Assembly (NCBI GenBank): GCA_019694755.1
Contig: JAIBBI010000010.1
Span: 1-64,000 of the forward strand
DNA from: Gemmataceae bacterium
GTDB lineage: Bacteria; Planctomycetota; Planctomycetia; Gemmatales; Gemmataceae
Direction: 5' to 3'
Length of the DNA stretch: 64,000 bases
Below the pieces are notes generated by a model. That model saw nothing but the letters and a program-made list of their open reading frames with translations. It was not told the DNA's origin and searched no databases. This document shows positions 11,413-63,000 of the stretch, in pieces (the first letter of the stretch is position 1; every line of letters begins with the position of its first letter). A program made the position numbers and the translations under genes.

Positions 11413-13845
11413 ATGAAAAAGTTCCGATTCTGGCTGACCCCCGCAACCCGTCCGGCCCGCCCCGTACGTCGGCGGCTGGGAGTCCAGTTGCTCGAAGACC
11501 GCACCGTGCCCGCCGCCTCGGGTCTGGTCGATCCCGGCTTCGAGGCACCCGCGCTCACCGCGGGCCAGTTCCGGTATCTGCCCACCGGGTCGGCATGGAC
11601 GTTCGGCGGTAATGCCGGCATCTCGGCCAACGGTAGCGGCTTTACCGCGGGCAATCCCGGCGCGCCCGAGGGCCGTCAGGTCGCCTTCTTGCAACAATCG
11701 TCCACGATGAGCCAGTCGGCGACGTTCGCGGCCGGTGCGTATGCCGTCACCTTCAATGCGGCCCAGCGCGGCAACGTGCCCGGCACGCAGACGCTCCAGG
11801 TGCTCGTCGACGGCGCGGTCGTCGGCAGCTTCAACACCGTCAGCGGCACCGGCTACACGTCGCTGACTTCGACGACATTCAACCTCTCGGCCGGGACACA
11901 CACGATCACGTTCAAGGGCACCAATCTCTACGGCGTCGACGCGACGATGCTGATTGACAACGTCGGGGTCACGCCCGTGGTGGCCGGGATCGTCGATACC
12001 GGCTTCGAGCGGCCCGCCCTCGCGCTCGGCGCGTTTCAGTACAACCCCACCGGCGGGAGTTGGAGTTATTCCGGCACCGCCGGGATCGCGACCAACTACA
12101 GCCCCTTCACCGGGGCCAATCCGCCGACGCCGCAGGGCAACCAGGTCTTGTTCCTTCAGGGCAACGGTGCGGCCACGCAGTCCGGCGTTTTCGCGGCCGG
12201 CACGTATACCATCGGCTTCGCTTTCGCCCAGCGCGCCAACGGCGGCGGCCAGCAGACGATCAACGTGCTCGTCGACGGCAAGGTCGTCGGTACCTTCAAC
12301 AACTTCGGAAACCAGACCTATGCCGCGGTCAATACGTCGAGTTTCACGCTCTCGGCGGGAAGCCACACAGTTTCGTTCCAGGGGACCAACCTCGTCGGCG
12401 GCGACAACACCGCGTTTATCGATCAGGTCACAGTGATGCAGCAGGCGGCCGGCCTCGCCGACTCCGCGTTCGAACTGCCGGCCATTGCCGCGGGCACGTT
12501 CCGGTACAACCCTTCGGGCGGGCCGTGGGCGTTTACCGGCACCTCGGGCGTCGCCACCAACTACAGCGCGTTCACATCGGGCAACCCGATCGCCCCGCAG
12601 GGTAATCAGGTGCTGTTCCTGCAGGGCACCGGCGCGGTGAGCCAGGTCGTCAACTTCCCCGCGGGCAGCTACGCGATCCAGTTCTCGGCGGCGCAGCGCG
12701 GCAACGGCGGCGGCAAGCAGACCTTCAACATCCTGCTCGACGGCCAGGTGCTCGGCGTCGTCAACAACCTCTCCGGCACCGGCTACTCCGCGCTGACGAC
12801 GACGACATTCACCGCGACGGCCGGCAACCACACGATCACGCTCGTGGGTACAAACCTCAACGGCGGCGACAACACCGCCTTCGTCGATCAGCTGGCCGTC
12901 GTCCGCTCGGCTGCCGGGTTCGCCGACTCCGCGTTCGAACTGGTCAGCCTCCCGGCCGGCTCGTTCCGGTACAACCCGACCGGCAGCGGCTGGACCTTTG
13001 CCGGCACCTCGGGCCTCGCGGCCAACAACAGCGGCTTCACGGCCGGCAACGCCGCGGCCCCGGACGGCTCGCAGGTCGCGTTCCTCCAGCGCAACGGGTC
13101 CATCAGCCAGGTCACGAACTTCGCGGCCGGTACGTACACCATCAACTTCCTCGCCGCCCAGCGTGCGCTCTACTCCACGCACCAGACCTTCCAGGTGCTC
13201 GTCGATGGCAAAGTCGTCGGCTCGTACAACTCCGTGACCGGGCCGGGCTACAGCGAATACGCCAGCTCGAGCTTTAACGTCGCGGCCGGCAATCACACCG
13301 TGACCTTCCAGGGCACTAATCTCGCCGGCGGCGACAACACCGCCTTCATCGATCAGATCACGATCGTCCAGCAACCCGCGGGCCTCGGCGATTCCGGCTT
13401 CGAGCAATCCGCGCTGGCGTACGGGACGTTCCTGTACGCCCCGACGACTTCGCCCTGGGTGTTCACCGGCACCGCCGGCGTCTCCACCGACAACAGCGCG
13501 TTTACCTCGCGCAACCAAGTCGCTCCGCAGGGCGGGCAGGTCGCCTTCCTGCAGCAGTTCGGCAGCTTCAGCCAGGTCGTGAATTTCACCGCGGGCATCT
13601 ACGACATCAGCTTCTTCGCGGCCCAGCGGGCCAATGCCGGCAGCACCCAGACCTTCCGCGTGCTCGTCGACGGCGTCGTCGTCGGCATCTACAACGGGTT
13701 GACGGAAACCACCTACGTGAGCTTCGTGACCGACGAGTTCAGCGTCTCCGCGGGCAACCACACCATCACGTTCCAGGGCACGAACCTGGCCGGCGGCGAC
13801 AACACCGTGTTCCTCGACCAGATTACGATCACGGCATTGTCGTGA
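11413..13845 (+). CDS. Secreted protein with five 155-residue repeats
   Basis: This 810-residue protein is a short N-terminal part plus five tandem domains. Residues 1-36 are basic and contain the planctomycete LLEDRTVPA motif (LExRxxPA type) just before the first repeat. Each repeat runs GxxDxGFE, a YNPTGxxW strand, NxVxFLQ, an AGxYxIxFxAAQR strand, VLVDGKVVG, and ends GTNLxGGDNTAFIDQ. This resembles galactose-binding-like jelly-roll domains (DUF642-like), known for glycan or cell-wall binding; that assignment is inference. There is no enzyme domain and no C-terminal anchor after the last repeat. It converges with the double-VWA gene with only 4 bp between stops. Confidence 0.82.
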   Translation: MKKFRFWLTPATRPARPVRRRLGVQLLEDRTVPAASGLVDPGFEAPALTAGQFRYLPTGSAWTFGGNAGISANGSGFTAGNPGAPEGRQVAFLQQSSTMSQSATFAAGAYAVTFNAAQRGNVPGTQTLQVLVDGAVVGSFNTVSGTGYTSLTSTTFNLSAGTHTITFKGTNLYGVDATMLIDNVGVTPVVAGIVDTGFERPALALGAFQYNPTGGSWSYSGTAGIATNYSPFTGANPPTPQGNQVLFLQGNGAATQSGVFAAGTYTIGFAFAQRANGGGQQTINVLVDGKVVGTFNNFGNQTYAAVNTSSFTLSAGSHTVSFQGTNLVGGDNTAFIDQVTVMQQAAGLADSAFELPAIAAGTFRYNPSGGPWAFTGTSGVATNYSAFTSGNPIAPQGNQVLFLQGTGAVSQVVNFPAGSYAIQFSAAQRGNGGGKQTFNILLDGQVLGVVNNLSGTGYSALTTTTFTATAGNHTITLVGTNLNGGDNTAFVDQLAVVRSAAGFADSAFELVSLPAGSFRYNPTGSGWTFAGTSGLAANNSGFTAGNAAAPDGSQVAFLQRNGSISQVTNFAAGTYTINFLAAQRALYSTHQTFQVLVDGKVVGSYNSVTGPGYSEYASSSFNVAAGNHTVTFQGTNLAGGDNTAFIDQITIVQQPAGLGDSGFEQSALAYGTFLYAPTTSPWVFTGTAGVSTDNSAFTSRNQVAPQGGQVAFLQQFGSFSQVVNFTAGIYDISFFAAQRANAGSTQTFRVLVDGVVVGIYNGLTETTYVSFVTDEFSVSAGNHTITFQGTNLAGGDNTVFLDQITITALS
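11521..13845 (+). repeat. Five in-frame tandem repeats of exactly 465 bp
   Basis: Repeat units begin at 11521, 11986, 12451, 12916 and 13381, each at the Gly codon of the GxxDxxFE motif. Each unit is 465 bp (155 codons), with no insertion or deletion between units, and the last one ends at the stop codon. The units differ at many positions, so they are old enough to have diverged. Confidence 0.9.
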
Positions 13846-34864: not shown

Positions 34865-35545
34865 ATGAAGCAGGCAGTCGTACTCCTGAGCGGCGGACTC
34901 GACAGCGCAACCGTCCTGGCGTCGGCCCGGGCCGACGGCTTCGCCTGCTACTGCCTCAGTGTCGATTACGGGCAGCGGCACCGCGTCGAACTCGACCGGG
35001 CCCGCGAACAGGTCGCCCTCCAGCATGCCGCCGAGCACCGCGTCGTCACGATCGACCTGCGGACCATCGGCGGCTCGGCCCTCACGGCCGACCTGCCCGT
35101 ACCGAAAGACTCGGCCGACGCGGGCATACCGGTCACCTACGTCCCCGCCCGCAATACCGTCCTGCTCGCACTCTGCCTGGGCTATGCCGAGGTGGTCGGC
35201 GCGTTCGACCTGTTCATCGGGGCGAATGCCGTGGACTACAGCGGCTACCCGGACTGCCGGCCGGATTTCCTCGCCGCGTTCGAGTCGCTGGCCAATCTGG
35301 CGACGAAAGCCGGCGTCGAGGGGGCAGGCCGGTTCCGCGTCCACGCGCCGCTCGTTCACCTCACCAAGGCCGAGATCATCCAACTCGGCACAAGCCTGGG
35401 CGTCGATTATTCGCGGACGGTGAGTTGCTACGACCCGGATACCGCGGGCCGGGCGTGTGGCCACTGCGACTCCTGCACCATCCGCCGGAAGGGCTTCGCC
35501 GCCGCCGGCGTGCCGGACGCGACGCGGTATCAGGAGTCCCGCTGA
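34865..35545 (+). CDS. queC: 7-cyano-7-deazaguanine synthase
   Basis: This 226-residue enzyme makes preQ0 from 7-carboxy-7-deazaguanine, ATP and ammonia in the queuosine pathway. The PP-loop SGGLDS is at residues 9-14, and the Zn site is formed by C188, C198, C201 and C204 (SCYDPD then CGHCDSC). I chose the ATG at 34865 because it gives the typical [14 protein letters not shown] opening; the upstream frame would run into queF. No strong ribosome site is visible. It shares the short 35-bp intergenic region with queF, so the two are probably regulated from one place. Confidence 0.96.
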
Positions 35546-35935
35546 TTCCTGTGTGTTGGTCGCGGGCGAAAGTCTGGCCTGTTGAACCGCGTCGGTTGCA
35601 GCATCCTCGAATGCCGATAAATGCGCCGACATGATTGCGTGCAGGTCCGAAGGACCTACCTTCCTTAGCCCGGCCCATCGGGCCGGGAGCCTGTTCAGTT
35701 CAGTTCAGCGGCCTGAAGGGCCGCGCTCGATGTAGCGCGGCCCTTCAGGCCGCCAACCCTCTGCTTCATGTCCCGGCCCGATGGGCCGGGCTAAGGAAGG
35801 TTGGCCCTTTGGGCCAAGACCGTAATTGGCTTGAAAGCCACCTCGGTCAACGACGATCGTCTCCGCCGGTCCTGTTTCAGTCCGGTGAGGCCAATCGATG
35901 ACGATCCTCCCCGTTCCAACGGCGTGGGAACAGCT
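35546..35935. other. 390-bp intergenic region carrying palindromes
   Basis: No coding gene is visible here. The middle is filled by the palindrome cluster described separately; the flanks (35546-35642 and 35818-35935) show nothing I can identify. It lies between the 3' ends of two convergent genes (queC and the UbiD gene). Confidence 0.6.
35643..35817. repeat. Nested palindrome cluster (REP/BIME-like)
   Basis: A perfect 31-bp inverted repeat (35658-35688 with 35771-35801) encloses a perfect 20-bp inverted repeat (35708-35727 with 35734-35753, 6-base loop). Each 31-base arm holds its own cccggccc/gggccggg-type hairpin. Small palindromes flank the set: aggtcc/ggacct at 35643-35657 and ttggccc/gggccaa at 35801-35817. 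The GC-rich gcccggcc and ggcctgaagggcc units look like REP sequences. No RAYT-type transposase is in the window. Confidence 0.75.
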
Positions 35936-37705
35936 TCATACAATCCCGTGCAGCGGCCCACCGGGCTTGCCGAGTTCGTCGACCCGCTTTTCGACGGTCG
36001 GGTCGGGCTCGACGGGCGGGGCGTGCCGTGGCTTGATCCGCGCGTCGATCACCAGCGGCCCGGTACAGCCCCAATGCTTGTCGCGGACGAACGCACCCCC
36101 GCCGTGGATGTCGGTAGCCGGGTCGCTGCGCGTAAACGTTACCCAGAGCCAGTTGTTCAAGGCCTGGCTGCAGAAGTCCGGATCGTCCACCAGCAACACC
36201 AGCGGGAACCCGTCGAGCGCGGGCAGTTGGGCCGCGAACGCACCCGCATCGCCAGTACCGCGAACGGCGAGGATGCCCGGCGCGCACACCCGGGCGTCGG
36301 GGAGCGACAGCCCCGCGGGTAGCGATGTCGCCAGCGTCCGCCGTGGCATGCCCGCGGCCGCGATCACCACCTTCGACCCTTCGTTGATGGCGGTGCCGCT
36401 GTAGTCGAGCGTGTCGATCGTCGTACAGGTCTGGAAGTGGAGATCTCTGGACCAGTCGACACGTTCCAGCACGTGGCGGAAGAAAGCGCCGATGTCGCGG
36501 ACGCCCGGCGGGTTGTCTTCTTTCGCCACGATCACGAGGTACTTGGCCAGCGAAAGCTGCCCCTGGCCGAGCAGGGCGTTGGCGATGGTGAGCAGTTCCA
36601 TCGGCTTGCGCTCGGCCGCGTACGGCACGTACCGCTCGCTGCCCGTGGCCAGCAGCAGCGGGTGGACCCCGGCCGCGTCGACGGCGTTGACTTCGTGCAG
36701 GCCGGCGACGACGGTCGGCAGCACCGGCCCGGTGAGTTCGTGGATCAGATCGCCGAAGCTGGTGTCTTCCTGCGGCGGCCGGCCGACGACGGTGAACGGC
36801 CAGACCGCGTCGGGCCGGGCGAACACGCCGTCGACCCGTAGCACCGGGAAGTCGTGCGTCAGACTGTAGTAGCCGAGATGATCGCCGAACGGCCCCTCGG
36901 GCTTGAGCCCCTCGGCAATCGTGCCGGTGATGACGAAGTCGGCATCGGCGAAGACCGGGCCGCCCTTCATCAGGCGGACCCGCCGGCCGCCCAGCGCGCC
37001 GGCGAACGCCAACTCGGGCAGCCCCTCCGGCAGCGGCATGACGGCGGCGACGGCCAGCGCGCGCGGCCCGCCCACGGCGACGGCGACCCGCAGCGATTCG
37101 CCGCGGGCCTTGGCTTTCGCATGGTGGACGCCGATGCCGCGATGGATCTGGTAATGCAGACCGACTTCGTGATCGGGGTCGAACTGGTTGCCGGCGATCT
37201 GCACGCGGTACATGCCGAGGTTGGCGTGACGCCAGCCGGGCCGGCCGGGCTCTTCGGTATAAACCTGCGGCAGCGTGACGAACGGCCCGCCGTCGCGGGG
37301 CCAGCACACGACCGGCGGCAAGTCGCGCAGCGACACGGGCACGAGCGGCGACGACCGCACGTACTTCGGCCGGGCGTGCCAGAGCGTCCGCGGGACGCCG
37401 CGATACTTCCACGGCTCGCGGAAGAACCGCCCGGGATCGACCTTGAGATCGACGAGTCGCTCGACGGCGTGCAGGGTGTCGCGGAACAGGAAGCGGGCCC
37501 GGTCGAGCGTGCCGAACATGTTGCTGACCAGCGGCCAGCGGCAGCCCCGCGCCCGGGTGAAGAGAAGGGCCGGCCCCCCGGCCTGGTAGACCCGCCGGTG
37601 AACGGCCGCGACTTCCAGATAGGGGTCGAGTTCCGCGTCGATCCGGACCAGCCGCCCGGACCGCTCGAGATCGGCAATGCACAGTCGCAGCGACGCGTAA
37701 CCCAT
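35936..37705 (-). CDS. UbiD family decarboxylase
   Basis: This 589-residue protein matches the UbiD family of prenylated-FMN-dependent (de)carboxylases. Landmarks are the EGPFGDHLGYYS motif near residue 300, GNQFDPDHEVGLHYQIHRG near 170, and the C-terminal DIHGGGAFVRDKHWG region near 545. Family members decarboxylate aromatic or alpha,beta-unsaturated acids, including a ubiquinone or menaquinone precursor. No UbiX (prFMN synthase) or quinone gene is next to it, so the substrate is unknown. It begins with ATG at 37705. Confidence 0.9.
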   Translation of the reverse strand: MGYASLRLCIADLERSGRLVRIDAELDPYLEVAAVHRRVYQAGGPALLFTRARGCRWPLVSNMFGTLDRARFLFRDTLHAVERLVDLKVDPGRFFREPWKYRGVPRTLWHARPKYVRSSPLVPVSLRDLPPVVCWPRDGGPFVTLPQVYTEEPGRPGWRHANLGMYRVQIAGNQFDPDHEVGLHYQIHRGIGVHHAKAKARGESLRVAVAVGGPRALAVAAVMPLPEGLPELAFAGALGGRRVRLMKGGPVFADADFVITGTIAEGLKPEGPFGDHLGYYSLTHDFPVLRVDGVFARPDAVWPFTVVGRPPQEDTSFGDLIHELTGPVLPTVVAGLHEVNAVDAAGVHPLLLATGSERYVPYAAERKPMELLTIANALLGQGQLSLAKYLVIVAKEDNPPGVRDIGAFFRHVLERVDWSRDLHFQTCTTIDTLDYSGTAINEGSKVVIAAAGMPRRTLATSLPAGLSLPDARVCAPGILAVRGTGDAGAFAAQLPALDGFPLVLLVDDPDFCSQALNNWLWVTFTRSDPATDIHGGGAFVRDKHWGCTGPLVIDARIKPRHAPPVEPDPTVEKRVDELGKPGGPLHGIV

Positions 37706-49088: not shown

Positions 49089-52000
49089 TCACACCGATTT
49101 CAGAAACCGCAGTCGAAATTGCAGGATGTCGAAGGCGTCAACGGTACCGTCGCCGTTGAAATCGAAGGTCTTGTTTGGTGATACCAGTACGAGACGCAAG
49201 GCGAGCCACTCGTCCGATGTTACCTTCCGATCGCCGTTGGCGTCGCCGAAGAGTCGGTGCAGTTGCGTCGAATAATCTCCTCCCGCTTTGCCGTCCTGAT
49301 TGCCGTCGAGCGGGCCATCGGCCGCGAGGACATCCGCGGCCCGGATCGTCAGCGTGTAACGACCGTCGGCGAGGCTGTCGTACTCAACGAGCCCGCCGTG
49401 AAACTGCAACGTCACACTGTTCCCGCTGACGCTGGCGATGAGTTTGACCCCGGCCGAATCGCTGTTGCGGACCAGCGAAAACGCGCTGGCCGGGTCGGTC
49501 GGGAGCGTGACCGGCTGGCTGAATTCGACGACGATCCGCTCGACCCGCGATCTCTGGACGGTGCCGTCGTTGATGCGTACTGCGGTCACAGTTACCGGCT
49601 GAGTCTCGTAAGCGCCGATATCGGTTTTGCCGTTCGACCGCGGGAACCCGCGCTGGTCGGTGGTCGCGGAGCCGGGGTTCGACCCGGCATTAATGCACGG
49701 GCTGTCGGGGAGCAGGGAATAGGTGGCTGTCGGGCCGCCGTGATCGCCGAGCGGCCCCAGTTTCAGATTCGTCCCGGCCGGAAGGTTGCCGCCGAGGTTG
49801 GTGTAGGCCGGAATGCCGACGTAAGAGCCGATGGCGGAGTTTTTTAAGGACAGAAAGCCGCCACCCCGAATGTCGGGAAACTTTCCGTAGTTTTTGGCTA
49901 CGATGCAGCTCTCGAGCCTTGAACTACCTTCGAGTCCCCCCGCGCCGTTGCCAGCCGAGTTGCCCACAATTGTTGAATTGCGAATGTTCACAAAATTTGT
50001 TTCGCCAATCAGAAATGGCAGCCGAATTGCGCCGGCTGATCCATACGCGAGGTTGCCTGTAAATGTCGAGTTTTCAACATAGATGGTGCCGCCCGAAGTA
50101 GTCCCAAACGACAAAGCACCGGCGGTCTGAGACGAATTGCCTGTGAACAGCGATCGTCGAATGACCAGCGAAGAATTGGAACTGGAAACTGAGACGGCAC
50201 CGGCCGCATAGTCAGCTGTGTTTTCGGCAAAAGTGCAATTAGTGATGTTCGTGTTTCCCATCCAGTAGACAGCCCCACCTACTCCGGCCGCGCTGTTGCC
50301 GGCAAATACACAGCCGTCAAGTATCAAATTACTACTGCCGCTACTTCCTCCAGTGATGGCGCCTCCCGAATTTGTCGTGGAATCAACATTCGCGCTGTTG
50401 CCTTGAAATCGCGAATTATTGATCTTGATACCGTTGAAGGAACTGGCCTTGATGGCTCCGCCGGAGTCAAGGGCCGAGTTGTCGACGAATGTACAGCCGT
50501 CTATCAGCGTGTATCCGGTGGTCTGGATCGCCCCGCCCGCTCGTGCGGAGTTGTCGCGAAATGTGCAGTTGTTCATAGTCGGCGTCGTCGCACTGATCGC
50601 GCCGCCTTCCAGGTCGGCCACGCAATTCGTGATTGTCATATCGTTGAGCGTTAGAAGGGTTGCCGAGATCGCGCCGCCATAGTCTGCCGCGGCCCGGCCG
50701 TTGGTCAGCGTGAGGCCGGACATCGTCAGCCGGCCTGCGGTGAAGTGTCGGCTCTGAGACATCGCGTCGATTGTCAATTTGCCCGCGCCGGGGCCGGTCA
50801 CCGTTACCTCTTCGGTGAATCGCAAGCCCCCTCCGGTAAGCGTTATGGTCTGTGAACCGGCGAATACACCCGGGTCGAATGCGATCGTGTCCTTTGTCAG
50901 GAAGCTGTCGTTGGCGTCGAGCACCGCCTGGCGGAGGCTACCCGGACCGGAATCGGCGACGGTCGTGACCAGAAATGTCCTCGGGATTGTAACCCGAGTC
51001 AATCCGACGGCTCCCGGGAGCGCGGCATGACCGGAAGCATCGAACACAGAACCTGCCTGAAGCACGTGCCGATAGTTTCCGTAGTCACTGCCGTCCCAAC
51101 TTCCCCCCGGCGGCGTGTATGTGTATCGAGCCACGACCGTCGGCGCGTTGGAAGATTGATCGATGCTGACCAGTTTGGCCGGCACATCGAAGCCGCCCGG
51201 GCCGACGACACGGATGTCGTTGTCGCCGAGGCTGGAGATGTCAATGGCGGCGTCGTCGCTGTAGGTGACGCTGAAACTCGTCGACGTTCCCCCGCCGGCC
51301 AACACGTTGAGCGCAGTTTCGACCACACCGAGCGCTACCGGAACACCAGTCGGGTCGGTGGATTCGATGCTCCCGACATCGGATCGGGTACCCAGCAATC
51401 GCACGAATCCGGAGCCGCGTTGATCGAATGCCGTCGTTGTGGAGGTAAGGCCGCGGTCGCGAACGGGGCTACCAGGCAACGGCAGCATCGTCGGAGTGGG
51501 CCCACCGTTGTCGGCCAGTGGCCCGAGCCGCGGGTCGATCCCGACGGCATTACTATTGGTCGAGGTGAAGTAACCGAGGGCCGTGCCGATCATGGTGTCG
51601 GTAAGCAGGCCGGCTCCCAGAGTCAGGATGTCCGGCCCGAGCGGGGCCGAGTTGAACACGATGCAGCCGTTCAAGGTGACGGATGGCGACTGAAACGCGG
51701 GACTGGCGAACCCACCGCCGCCGGCCGCCGAGTTGTCGACAATGGTGCATTGCGTGGCCGTGACGTGGCCCTTGGCCGCCGTCAGGAAGACCGCCCCGCC
51801 GCGGCCGGTCGCCGTATTGCGTGTAACGGTCGTTTGCTGGATTGTGAACTGTCGGGCGCCCGAGGCGATCGCGCCGCCGTCGGCCGCGATGTTGTCAGCC
51901 AGCGTGCAGCCTGCGAATGCCAACCCGGAGATTGCCGTGTCGGGAGGCAACACTGCCACCGCGCCGCCCCGTCCTCCTGCGAAGTTGTTCTGGAATAGGG

Positions 52001-54101
52001 AATCGGTCAGATTCACACCCAGGACGGACGTCGCGAAGAGCGCACCCCCGTTGCCGGCTGAGCGGTTGTCGCGGAACCTCCCGCGGACGACGGTCAGTGG
52101 CCCGGCACTGGCGACCGCGCCGCCGTCACCGGCTGCGGTGTTGCCGGCAAACGTCACGTCGGTTAGCGTGACGGACTCATCTTGAATGAACAGGCCGCCG
52201 GGCCCGGACACGCTGCGGCCGTCCGCAATGGTAACACCGGAAATGGAGATCACCGCCATGTCCGCCGCGCTGATTTCGAGCGGTCGTACCAGACCGCCAC
52301 CGGAAATTGTCAGCAGGCCCGCGCCGGGCCCGAGGATCGTGAGCGAGTCGGCAATCGTCATGGGCGACGAAAGCGAAATGGTCGCCGGGCCGGAGAGATT
52401 GAAGACGATGGTATCAGCCGCCAGACCAGCGTTCGTATCCAGAATGGCCTGACGCAGAGAGCCCGGACCCGTGTCGTTCGCATTCGAAACGACCGCCGTC
52501 ATCGGGACCCGGACGCTGAACCGTCCGAGAGACGATTCGGGAATTGTGTTGCCCGCAAGGTCAGACACCTGCGCCGCCTCGACCGTAACGCGATAGTGAC
52601 CGGAGTCGCCGGCATCCCACGACCCGCCCGGCCCCGCCAGCGAGTAGGTGGCGACTCGCGGAGTTCCCGGACCCGGCTGGTTGATCGATACAAGCTGAGG
52701 GAATGCGTCGAAGCCGTTCGGCCCGATGACGCGCAGGTCGAGGCTATCGATGGTGGCCGTGTCGATCAGCGAGCCGCCGGCAAACGTGACGGTGATGGAA
52801 GCCGCCGATGTGGGCGCAGTGATATCGGCGAACTGCGCGATGGCGTACGGCTTGCCCGCGGGGATGTACTCAAATGCTCCGATGTCGGGGAGGCCGTAAG
52901 CCCGCGGTCGGCCCCGTTGGTCCATCGTCAGATCGGCCGGGTTCGCGCCGGCATCAATGCACGGACTGCCGGGCAGCAGGGCGTGAGTCGCCGTCGGGCC
53001 GCCGTTGTCGGCCAAAGGGCCGATGAACAGCAGCGCGCCGATGAGGTTCTGGCCGGCATCCACGAAATTGGTGACCCCGGCCGTGTTGCCGATAGCGCTG
53101 GCATGCGATTGAACTTGCACAGCGGACAGGTCCGGCCCGGTCGGGGCGGAGTTGTTGCTGACGATGCTGCTTTCGATGAGGAGATTCGGGGCCGGCACGC
53201 CAGTCAAGGCAACGCCACCGCCGGACCCGTTAGCCGAATTGCTGAAGAGAGTCGAGTTTTCGATCCGCACAGCTGCGGGGGGACCTGCTGAGGACACGCG
53301 GATCGCGCCGCCGGACCCGTATGTCGAATTGCCGGAGAACGTGGAGTTCCGGATCAACACGTTGAGGGGTAGGAAGCGGGTACTGACATCGATGGCACCG
53401 CCGCCCGAACTGGCGTAGTTACCCGCAAACAGACTGTTTTCGATCGTGAGGGATTGCGCGTCCCCGAGCGAGACTGCGCCCCCCAGCCCCTCGGCCCTAA
53501 AACCTGAAAAGGAACTGTCACGAATTGTAACACTGGCGGCTGCGGTCATTGAGATGCCAACGCCCGGGTACACGCCGGACGCATTGGCGAACCTGCAACC
53601 TTCGATCGAAAGTGTGCCGGACACGAGTGCCGTTTGGACTATTCCCTGTCCGCCGCCGTAATAGCCCCAAAAGTCGAAGAAGTTGCAATCCCTGACGGAT
53701 ACACGGTCGCTTGCGATTCGAATTCCGGAGCAGTCCTGTCCGCCGCGAAACGAGAGCCCGGACAGGTTCACGTCCAGGCTGCGCATGTTCCCGGTGCGGA
53801 TCACCGACCTCGACCACCCGATAGTGACGGTCAACGCGCAAAGACCACTACCCGGCCCTATGAGAGTGATATCGTCGCGGACCTCCCATCCATCGGTCGT
53901 GTTGATCGTTCGCGGTGTGGAGAAGTAGTTCGGATCGAAAACTACGGTATCTGGCCCAATCGCATTGTTCGCCGATGTGATCGCGGCCGTCAGCGACCCG
54001 ACGCCGCTCTCCGCATTGTTGGTGACTGTAAATACGGCAGGTGCGTATCGCGACTCCAACCGCTCGAGGCGGAGCCACCTGCGACGAAATTGCGCGGACA
54101 C
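49089..54101 (-). CDS. Giant beta-helix / choice-of-anchor Q protein with dockerin-like end
   Basis: This 1670-residue exported protein has a basic N-terminus with the LERLESRYAPA motif (LExRxxPA type). Three modules follow. Each starts with a CSLREA-like segment (GSLRQAILDxNxxxxxDTIVFD, near residues 30, 540 and 1044), goes through Asn/Gly-rich parallel beta-helix repeats and ends with a choice-of-anchor Q block (NGGPTxTxxLLPGSPCIDAG then TTDQRGxPR and DIGAxE; near 370, 870 and 1460). The last 50 residues hold two EF-hand-like loops (DANGDRKVTSDE and DFNGDGTVDAFD) as in dockerins, ending LQFRLRFLKSV. I chose a GTG at 54101 because GGGAG lies six bases upstream. Confidence 0.86.
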   Translation of the reverse strand: MSAQFRRRWLRLERLESRYAPAVFTVTNNAESGVGSLTAAITSANNAIGPDTVVFDPNYFSTPRTINTTDGWEVRDDITLIGPGSGLCALTVTIGWSRSVIRTGNMRSLDVNLSGLSFRGGQDCSGIRIASDRVSVRDCNFFDFWGYYGGGQGIVQTALVSGTLSIEGCRFANASGVYPGVGISMTAAASVTIRDSSFSGFRAEGLGGAVSLGDAQSLTIENSLFAGNYASSGGGAIDVSTRFLPLNVLIRNSTFSGNSTYGSGGAIRVSSAGPPAAVRIENSTLFSNSANGSGGGVALTGVPAPNLLIESSIVSNNSAPTGPDLSAVQVQSHASAIGNTAGVTNFVDAGQNLIGALLFIGPLADNGGPTATHALLPGSPCIDAGANPADLTMDQRGRPRAYGLPDIGAFEYIPAGKPYAIAQFADITAPTSAASITVTFAGGSLIDTATIDSLDLRVIGPNGFDAFPQLVSINQPGPGTPRVATYSLAGPGGSWDAGDSGHYRVTVEAAQVSDLAGNTIPESSLGRFSVRVPMTAVVSNANDTGPGSLRQAILDTNAGLAADTIVFNLSGPATISLSSPMTIADSLTILGPGAGLLTISGGGLVRPLEISAADMAVISISGVTIADGRSVSGPGGLFIQDESVTLTDVTFAGNTAAGDGGAVASAGPLTVVRGRFRDNRSAGNGGALFATSVLGVNLTDSLFQNNFAGGRGGAVAVLPPDTAISGLAFAGCTLADNIAADGGAIASGARQFTIQQTTVTRNTATGRGGAVFLTAAKGHVTATQCTIVDNSAAGGGGFASPAFQSPSVTLNGCIVFNSAPLGPDILTLGAGLLTDTMIGTALGYFTSTNSNAVGIDPRLGPLADNGGPTPTMLPLPGSPVRDRGLTSTTTAFDQRGSGFVRLLGTRSDVGSIESTDPTGVPVALGVVETALNVLAGGGTSTSFSVTYSDDAAIDISSLGDNDIRVVGPGGFDVPAKLVSIDQSSNAPTVVARYTYTPPGGSWDGSDYGNYRHVLQAGSVFDASGHAALPGAVGLTRVTIPRTFLVTTVADSGPGSLRQAVLDANDSFLTKDTIAFDPGVFAGSQTITLTGGGLRFTEEVTVTGPGAGKLTIDAMSQSRHFTAGRLTMSGLTLTNGRAAADYGGAISATLLTLNDMTITNCVADLEGGAISATTPTMNNCTFRDNSARAGGAIQTTGYTLIDGCTFVDNSALDSGGAIKASSFNGIKINNSRFQGNSANVDSTTNSGGAITGGSSGSSNLILDGCVFAGNSAAGVGGAVYWMGNTNITNCTFAENTADYAAGAVSVSSSNSSLVIRRSLFTGNSSQTAGALSFGTTSGGTIYVENSTFTGNLAYGSAGAIRLPFLIGETNFVNIRNSTIVGNSAGNGAGGLEGSSRLESCIVAKNYGKFPDIRGGGFLSLKNSAIGSYVGIPAYTNLGGNLPAGTNLKLGPLGDHGGPTATYSLLPDSPCINAGSNPGSATTDQRGFPRSNGKTDIGAYETQPVTVTAVRINDGTVQRSRVERIVVEFSQPVTLPTDPASAFSLVRNSDSAGVKLIASVSGNSVTLQFHGGLVEYDSLADGRYTLTIRAADVLAADGPLDGNQDGKAGGDYSTQLHRLFGDANGDRKVTSDEWLALRLVLVSPNKTFDFNGDGTVDAFDILQFRLRFLKSV

Positions 54102-60000: not shown

Positions 60001-63000
60001 TCGAACTGCAATCGGAGACGTCGAGGTCGGTCAGCACAATAACTCCATTGCTGATCTTGATTCCGCCGCCATCGTCAAAACTCCGGGCATTTCTGATTGA
60101 CATGCCCGAGATAGTGACGCTGTCCGTCGCACCTAACTGAATTTCAAACATTCGACCGTAGTATGTCGTTCCATACTGTACGGTCAGCAGCTTCGAGCCG
60201 GGGCCGACAATGGCAAGGGAACTGTAAATCGTCGGAAGCTGCGTCGTGGTCAGGGTAATTGATTGGGGCGTAGAGAATACTGCGGGGTCGAAGACGATCG
60301 TATCCGTTCCTGGCACATAGTTCACATCGTACATCGCCTGCTGCAGCGATCCCGGCCCGGATTGATTGGCGTTCGTGACCGTGAATGTGTGCTGATCTTC
60401 GTACGCGCCGATGTCGGAGGCCGCTTCGTCGATTCGCGTGAATCCGACACCACGTTGATCGTAAGTCAGGCCGGCGGGGTTTGAGCCCGCATTGCGGAGC
60501 GGGCTGTCGGATGCGAAGGCGTATGTCTGCGTCAGGCCGCCGTAACTTCCGAGCGCGGTCAACTTCAGGTTCGTGCCGATCGGCAGGTTGTTGGTCCCGT
60601 TGAGCGTGAATCCGCTCGTCGAGCCAATCGCGCTGAAGTTGACGGCGACCGACTTGCCGCCCGCCGCGATATCCGGTTGGGAACCGGCCGAGTTGCCCGA
60701 GATTATGCTACTGTCGACCGATACGCTCCCGGTGCCGAACCGGAAATAGACGCCCGCTCCGACGCCAGAGGTCAGCGTGTTTTGGGTGATCGTACTGTTC
60801 TGGATGACGAGTGGGGCGTTGAACGGCTGACCGGAATCCCAACCGACCAGAAGGGCTCCGCCGCCCGCGCCGCCGGCGGTGTTTCTGGCCAATGTGGAAT
60901 TCCGGATGACATACGGAGTCGTCGTCGATGTGGTCGTCAGGAACAAGCCGCCCGTGTCGAGACTCGAAGTGTTGTTGACAATGGCGGACCGCTCCAGCAG
61001 GAGCCCGCCGGCGACCCGGCCGACCGCCTGCACCTGGGCCGTGTTGTTGGATATCTGCGAATCAGTAATGGTGAGCGAGGCAGTCGTGTAAAGAGCTCCA
61101 TAGCCGCTCGCCGCGGAGTTGGACGAGATCGTTGTACGCTCGATCGTGGCGGGTCCGTAGCTGGTGACGGCTCCGACATTGACGCTTGCGCTATTCGATT
61201 GGATGGTCGAATCACGGATCGTCAGGGCGGTGCTTGCGAAATGCGCGATCCCGCCGACGTAACTTCCCGTACTGAGACTGATCGTGGAATGGTCGATTGA
61301 CAAGGCACCGCCGACAGAGTAGATGGCTCCGCCACTGCCGCGTGTCCAGGCATCGGACACCCTCAGGTAGGAAAGGCTCACCGAAGTCGATGAGGACCCT
61401 CCTACCACAAAGACACGGTCCAAGTAATTTCCGCTGATCACGGGGCGGGGATAACTCGCGCCCTGAATTGCCACGTCGCTCGTAACTGTCAGAGCACCGG
61501 AGTTAAGAGTGATCGTCGGGGTGACGGCAAAGTCAAACGTGATCGTGTCTGCGCCGTTGACGGCGTTCGCCTCGACGATTGCTTGTCGCAGTGTGTTTGG
61601 CCCGCGGTCTTCCCGAGACGTGACGACCCACTGTCGCTCCACCGCTCCGATGTCGGCGGCCTTGCCGTTGACTCGGGCATAATCACCGCCACGTTGATCC
61701 GCGGTACTGCCGGCCGAGTTTGAACCTGCGTCGATGAGCGGACTGCCGGGTTGGGGGGCCAAGCTCAGGGCGAAGGTCGAACCGCCGTTCGAGGACAAGG
61801 ACGGTCCCAACTTGAGGTCGATCCCATACGCCAGATTGCCTCCTTTGTCCGTCTGAACATACCCCGCCGCTGAACCGATTGCGCTGGTACCCACGGCGAC
61901 CGCGTTTGCCGAGAAGATGTCTGGGCCCGACGGTGCGACATTGGCTGCGACGATGCTGCTTTCGACGGTGAGCTGCACCGAGCCCGCTTGCACATTGATT
62001 CCGCCGCCCGAGCTCGTGGCGGTATTGAGATACACAGTGCTGTTTTGAATCAAGACGGAGTCCACCGTGCCTCCGACAAGGATGGCTCCACCGACTCCTG
62101 CGACTGAGTTGCCGTAAAAGGTGCTGTTGCGAACAATCGCCGTGGTGCCGACGCTCCCGGCAACGGTTATGGCGGCGCCAAAGCCCGCCCCATTCGTGAC
62201 TCGGTTGAACTGGAAGTTGCTCTCGCTAACCACAAGACTGCCGCCGCCAAATCTCATGCCGCCACCACTGTTGGCTGCCGTATTGTTTTGGAAAGAAACT
62301 CCTGTCAGCGTGACAGTTGAAGCGTTCGTGATTCCAAGCCCGCCGCCATTAACCGTCGAGGTATTACCGAAGAAAAGGACGTTGCGCAGATCGAGTACCG
62401 CGCCCGTGCCCGCAACGTGAATGCCGCCGCCGTAGCCCGCCGTCGCCGAACTACTGCGAATTTGCGAGTCGAGAATGATCAGCCGCTCGTCATCAACAAG
62501 CAGCGCACCTCCAGTGCTCGCTTTTCCATTAGCTAACCGGATGTTGCGCAGCGTGATGGGAGTGCCAGCCGCAGCCGACGATGTATTGAAGACACGTCCT
62601 GCAAGATTGCCGGACACCGACAGAGCGCCTATGCTCGGTCCCTCGATAGTGACTTGGTCCGAAATCGCGAGTTCGCCCGTCGTCAGGGCGATCGTCTTTG
62701 CCACCCCGTAAAACGTGGCGTCGAACGTGATCGTGTCGGGACCGGGCGCGGCATTGGCATCGAGCACAGCCTGCCGCAGTGAGCCCGCGCCGCTATCGCC
62801 AGTATTGGTGACGAGAAAGCTGTACTGTGATTCGAACGCTCCCATGTCGGCTATCCCACCGACGACCCGCGGCAGGCCTCGCTGGTCTGTGGTCGCCCCC
62901 GTCGGATTCGAGCCGGCGTTGACATAAATACTGCCCGGCCGGAGGCGGTGTGTTTTCGTCGGTCCGCCGTTGTCGGCCAGTGGCTCGAGCGAGCCTAGCC

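Follow-up and report, generated by a model that had tools for sequence, protein, structure and literature searches.

Mirrored three-hairpin arms shared by a gene-less intergenic element and a Y1 transposase gene in a Gemmataceae bacterium: a probable REPIN-like mini-element

A composite palindrome between queC and ubiD

The window analyzed here is a 64-kb stretch of DNA from a Gemmataceae bacterium. Within it, the convergent genes queC and ubiD are separated by 390 bp, of which 176 bp are taken up by an element made of two mirror-image arms with three hairpins (H1, H2 and H3) in each (Table 1). Among the matches listed, no queC-ubiD adjacency was seen in relatives. Read inwards, an arm consists of H1 (stem of 5-7 bp), a linker of 11-12 nt that ends in AG, H2 (8-bp stem and 3-nt loop), about 20 nt, and H3 (6-bp stem), and the opposite arm mirrors this order. 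The left and right H1 differ in sequence, and the same difference is present in 7/7 of the host loci described below.

The outer arms are perfect over 31 nt (35658-35688 and 35771-35801) and, when mismatches are allowed, extend to 45 nt with 91% complementarity (35644-35688 and 35771-35815); the inner palindrome is made of both H3 hairpins. These coordinates confirm the original prediction of nested perfect palindromes with outer arms of 31 nt and inner arms of 20 nt. Each outer arm had also been predicted to contain a hairpin of its own. Hairpins are indeed present, but there are two complete ones (H1 and H2) plus H3 per arm. With a spacer of at most 150, perfect inverted repeats elsewhere in the 64-kb window reach at most 13 nt, and the longest in random Markov-1 windows (n = 8) was 11-15 nt. 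The window palindromes are far above chance.

As a single strand, the element has a folding energy of -86.8 kcal/mol (z = -15.2), a value reached by 0 of 200 shuffles. Two folds are possible: one long hairpin with H1 at each foot, which gives the -86.8, or separate arms, which give -24.1 and -27.1. Matches of the element to micro-RNA families in Rfam were below gathering and were rejected; they most likely reflect the long hairpin.

Table 1. Features of the intergenic element and its neighboring genes, in window coordinates
Feature	Position	Strand	Remark
queC, upstream neighbor	34865..35545	+	Pfam QueC 1.9e-69
Whole mini-element, gene-less, mirror arms	35642..35817	.	start and stop shared by other genome copies
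Arms by R1 model	35642-35724; 35737-35817	+; -	matches to R1 model
Left outer H1, GGTCC-GAA-GGACC	35644..35656	+	present in 7/7 host loci
12-nt linker, ends in TAG foot of H2	35657..35668	+	AG invariant in 53/53 aligned triads
Left H2, 8-bp stem, loop ATC	35669..35687	+	with H1 matches RF01687
Left H3, GCGGCC-TGAAG-GGCCGC	35708..35724	+	half of inner palindrome
Inner palindrome	35708..35753	.	perfect 20-nt arms 35708-35727 and 35734-35753, 6-nt loop
Right H3	35737..35753	-	
Right H2	35772..35790	-	with H1 matches RF01687
Right outer H1, TTGGCCC-TTT-GGGCCAA	35801..35817	-	sequence unlike left H1
ubiD-family decarboxylase, convergent neighbor	35936..37705	-	Pfam UbiD 3.7e-59

Repeats of other kinds are also present in the window. 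At 11725-13830 there are five tandem 465-bp units, about 66-82% alike, which probably belong to a repeat-domain protein. Direct repeats of 33-54 bp are dispersed over 51496-53183 and 61919-62990, at distances of about 1.5 kb and of 9-10 kb, and perhaps mark a large repetitive protein.

Copies with and without a transposase gene

The element sequence occurs at seven loci in the host genome (5.6 Mb, 335 contigs). The family Gemmataceae is also indicated by gene flanks from genomes of this family, such as L093 of G009 and L155 of Zavarzinella formosa, that are found unchanged in named Gemmataceae records. Four are mini-elements of 176-179 bp, located on contigs C232 (the window), C115, C72 (locus L032) and C208 (L033). 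At a fifth locus, C42 (L034, 9326-9654), the arms lie back to back: their H1 hairpins face each other across about 150 bp, in which no gene remnant was noticed. In the remaining two, copies of about 0.7 kb on C178 and C251 (L035), the arms enclose an ORF, and the transposase gene that it represents separates the two halves of the inner palindrome. All 13 copies of the exact H3 18-mer in the host genome (13/13) fall within the seven loci.

The ORF of the C178 and C251 copies encodes 150 aa with an HUH motif and matches PF01797 (Y1_Tnp, 3e-21). The NCBIfam IS200 model scored the host transposase at 53.5 bits, below its cut-off of 55. The assignment to a family is made from Pfam and motifs. The motifs are DHVH, HWQ and YIDQQPEHH; the last contains Y---Q--HH, which is present in 93/99 distinct homologue genes. 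In the part of Quentin et al. (2018, PMC6006769) that deals with it, TnpA_Y1 subclass 1.2 is defined by DH[IV]H, WQ, Y---Q--HH and a length of ~148 aa, is drawn mostly from Cyanobacteria and Bacteroidetes, and is entered as 'no' for REP and as not sharing IS properties. By motif, the host transposase would belong to this subclass. Three more Y1_Tnp-like genes, with weaker matches, are present in the host (L040, L041 and L042, on C89, C194 and C5).

The arms are the ends of an element of ~0.7 kb that encodes a 150-aa transposase, and the mini-element has both ends without the gene. The original prediction had remarked that no RAYT-type gene is near. This holds locally but is misleading, since an IS200-like transposase lies inside 2/7 of the host loci. 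The two states coexist in the host, though gene-bearing copies within a genome have diverged (77% aa in the host) and any recent movement of the gene itself is putative.

Further repeats accompany some of these loci. At L033 (C208:7496-7601 onward), tandem H2-H1 half-arm units of ~60 bp stand beside the full mini-element in a BIME-like array; at L035 (C251:14586-14668), tandem units of ~41 bp that contain only the right H1 hairpin stand beside the gene-bearing copy. A second type of mini-element, distinct in sequence, is found at L234 (host C77:647-865).

Opposed pairs of arms without room for a gene, 156-234 bp in size, were also found in other genomes. There are at least 5 in the host, at least 15 in G031 (a single-contig genome), at least 6 in G075 and at least 29 in G069, and 2, 0, 0 and 1 pairs, respectively, lie at gene distance among the matches listed; the pair counts are lower bounds, drawn from at most 150 scored candidates per genome and from 150 of 187 matches. 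The hairpins of the G031 mini-elements are conserved and the H2-H3 linkers are variable, as expected if hairpin recognition is what is kept. A complete mini-element lies upstream of the G031 gene; downstream of the gene, no triad was found. Conservation ends ~4-5 nt outside H1, and the outer borders are sharp.

At one site, a stretch of DNA that carries a ~195-bp mini-element in G069 (C10:96999-97193) is uninterrupted in two related species, G072 and G075. In pairwise alignments, the site measures 10 bp in G072 versus 232 in G069, and 8 bp in G075 versus 230. Because these two relatives lack the element, its insertion in G069 is the simpler reading. For a second G069 mini-element (C67:14762-14952), G072 has 38 bp versus 298 in G069, with a middle that does not align; this is consistent with an empty site in G072, and in G075 the site is filled by other sequence. 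G069 also has a gene-bearing copy, at C10:67195-67859. Mini-elements lie wholly inside long stop-free stretches less often than random placements do (20/36 versus 302/360). Other dispersed repeats, in several copies of ~80-98% identity, are present in G069 at L238 (12891-13028 and 13891-14013) and L239 (12940-13235).

Mirror-image ends, miniature size and dispersal would also characterize a DDE-type MITE with terminal inverted repeats. However, 4-nt direct repeats, looked for as target-site duplications in 36 of the 44 pairs from G031 and G069, flank 4/36 mini-elements versus 3.4 expected from shuffled pairs. This is no excess, which agrees with transposition by Y1 HUH enzymes and not with that of DDE elements. 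Furthermore, the gene found between these arms encodes a Y1 HUH transposase, and the ends are hairpins with variable stems at fixed spacing. We regard a DDE origin as very improbable.

Triads beside related genes and the Rfam family RF01687

We collected 110 loci with related genes, including host C251. Dropping 11 with identical genes left 99 distinct loci, and dropping four with short flanks left 95 for a test of the flanks with a strict descriptor (three perfect stems at set spacings). A strict triad was found upstream of the gene at 36/95 loci and, mirrored, downstream at 41/95; both were present at 27/95, and the two-sided descriptor failed at the other 68/95. In dinucleotide shuffles (n = 950) the descriptor was matched once upstream and never downstream, and in control tiles at least 700 nt away it was matched in 9/1323. 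Mirrored triads are often found beside relatives of the gene in planctomycetes, verrucomicrobia, acidobacteria and others, with lineage-specific stems and, at most of the loci, an H1-H2 spacing of 11-13 nt. The triad was lacking at the two Bacteroidota loci inspected (L146 and L164), in agreement with the earlier report for Bacteroidota.

An alignment was built from 52 of 62 non-redundant triads and the window row; the other 10, with unusual spacing or stems, were omitted on visual inspection. Two-sided compensating changes occur in 13/19 stem pairs, a count that leans towards structure because the rows were picked for perfect stems; the shuffle and tile controls are free of bias from this choice. 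The base that precedes the AG foot of H2 is T in 23 of the 53 rows, C in 23, A in 5 and G in 2.

The variable foot bears on whether the element is a canonical REPIN or BIME of a class-2 RAYT, that is, of GTAG REPs with a Y---NP transposase. The two inverted palindromic units, the intergenic position, the non-autonomous character and the presence of a cognate Y1 transposase in the genome would all suit such an assignment. However, the foot of H2 is NNAG with AG alone invariant, so that a GT[AG]G foot is absent; the transposase motif is YIDQQPEHH rather than Y---NP; and each arm has three hairpins, not one. The foot and the transposase motif rule out a canonical GTAG REP, and we find membership in the class-2 RAYT system improbable. 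The original description of a REP- or BIME-like composite between queC and UbiD is accurate as to the composite and, by Pfam, the convergent genes; the arm anatomy and the transposase class differ from those of a canonical GTAG REP or BIME.

The triad covariance model had matches in at least 73/102 genomes of the order, host included, and the gene was found in 57/102. Of these genomes, 54 had both, 3 had the gene without triads, 19 had triads without the gene and 26 had neither, with triad counts that are lower bounds from at most 44 candidates scored per genome. Triads were found in 54/57 genomes with the gene versus 19/45 without it (Fisher p 3.7e-9, kinship ignored). The original prediction had named a single copy, with nothing similar in relatives, as the outcome that would speak against it; the seven host loci and this shared architecture are a different outcome. 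When the DNA of the window element was compared with 58 relatives, the single match was weak and partial (G033, query 62-124), indicating that relatives have the architecture in common but not the letters.

Both arms match the full model of Rfam family RF01687 (Acido-Lenti-1), the left at 35643-35687 on the minus strand with 27.6 bits and the right at 35772-35816 on the plus strand with 27.5 bits, each below the gathering threshold of 37. The 46-nt model corresponds to H2, linker and H1 read outwards. Two sibling loci are above gathering, the C72 mini-element (L032, 39.8) and the gene-bearing C251 copy (L035, 37.3). Among 60 scanned loci, RF01687 was above cut-off in 18 (11/20, 3/20 and 4/20 by set); the scans started from these loci, which we chose, so the association runs in one direction, towards RF01687. 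The sets with 11/20 and 4/20 contain 26 hits, 22 of which are within ~370 nt of the gene. The other four form an array farther out (L141, 1355-2089), in one orientation and ~220-250 bp apart, downstream of the gene.

Weinberg et al. (2010, PMC2864571) entered Acido-Lenti-1 as a probable RNA that is not cis-regulatory, and their description, unlike the results here, makes no link to mobile elements in the part that concerns this family. A 2026 paper proposes, in its passage on Acido-Lenti-1 'ncRNAs' near Tannerella proteases, that they may regulate those genes (PMC13298647); mobile-element ends offer another reading of them.

The element might likewise be a structured ncRNA of RF01687, or a bidirectional 3' end or terminator in the queC and ubiD transcripts. 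The full-length H1-H2 match, above gathering at L032 and L035, the covarying stems and the convergent gene ends would fit. Covariation, however, fits RNA and DNA hairpins alike, the RF01687 matches lie on mirrored strands around a transposase gene, and a gene-less pair occupies a site that is empty in relatives. There is no T-tract terminator, and a search for intrinsic terminators returned 0 sites, which gives no support to the double terminator suggested in the original prediction. A role confined to RNA or to transcript ends thus has little probability. We lean instead towards the view that the Acido-Lenti-1 'RNA' mainly represents the DNA end of a mobile system that has been overlooked, in which subclass-1.2 Y1 transposases have mirrored ends of three hairpins and move REPIN-like mini-elements in trans.

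A probable REPIN-like element of the IS200 class

Taken together, the window element is very probably a REPIN-like mini-element that is non-autonomous and belongs to a transposon family of the IS200 class (Y1 HUH, subclass-1.2-like), and the mobile palindromic element that the original prediction had considered is plausible. What was observed is the anatomy, the copies with and without the gene, the association across genomes, the insertion at one site, and the absence of target duplication. What we infer concerns cleavage, strand choice, recognition of folded single-stranded ends and mobilization in trans. In single-stranded form, such as on the lagging-strand template, the element would fold into its hairpins, and a transposase dimer acting in trans may recognize them, probably through H2 and its NNAG foot. 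In IS608 a guide tetranucleotide is present, and a counterpart of it is suggested for the AG foot of H2; by the same analogy, the NNAG foot may correspond to the GTAG foot of REPs. The transposase tyrosine would then cut, and the strand would be joined elsewhere without target duplication. The mirror symmetry also makes the second fold possible, in which the element forms one long hairpin and the ends may be hidden.

REPINs and BIMEs, in the features treated by Bertels and Rainey (2011, PMC3116915) and Nunvar (2010, PMC2817692), are similar in being non-autonomous inverted palindromic pairs, in that the same units border a cognate Y1 transposase, and in occurring as singles, pairs and arrays for which long-hairpin or clover folds have been proposed. 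They differ in that, as described there, they are built on one 20-40-bp REP with a GTAG foot, whereas here a triad of fixed spacing forms pairs of ~175-235 bp; here, too, the transposase is of the class-1 type (Y---Q--HH), the gene lies inside the same mirrored pair, and gene-bearing and gene-less forms coexist. Subclass 1.2, as far as its account in PMC6006769 goes, has the same motifs, a length of ~148-150 aa, a conserved C-terminal tail and a low number of diverged copies; in contrast to that account, the relatives in PVC, Acidobacteria and other phyla studied here have mirrored triads and gene-less derivatives.

The Y1 HUH transposase, hairpin ends and absence of target duplication are shared with IS200/IS605 elements, which in the relevant statement of PMC2817692 have no terminal inverted repeats, whereas the ends here are mirror images with three hairpins each. 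TIRtrons (TIRYT; Di Nocera et al. 2013, PMC3733652) are described in the pertinent sections as Y1 transposases bordered by long inverted repeats, in part self-complementary, which are also dispersed as dimers. They differ, however, in that their proteins are classed mostly in subclass 2.1 (in the corresponding part of PMC6006769) and in their GGGGWSAS motif, and a conserved triad is not among the features that those sections of PMC3733652 describe. In the literature covered, which included few subscription papers and no preprints, we found neither a prior report of three-hairpin mirrored ends for subclass 1.2 nor a prior reading of Acido-Lenti-1 as a mobile element.

The REPIN-like reading connects three observations that had stood apart: a transposase subclass described as lacking ends, an Rfam RNA family that had no explanation, and nested palindromes dispersed in planctomycete and related genomes. 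If it is right, RF01687 annotations are to be read as mobile-element ends. In discussing the origin of REPINs, Bertels and Rainey (2011, PMC3116915) proposed an autonomous, IS200-like ancestral element whose ends gave rise to them. Because the arms here are common to gene-bearing and gene-less forms in one genome, the family may be a living example of this ancestral state of REPINs and RAYTs, in phyla where none had been described. Since both forms coexist and the arm sequence is particular to each lineage, it would provide a test bed for the origin of REPINs from IS200-like elements.
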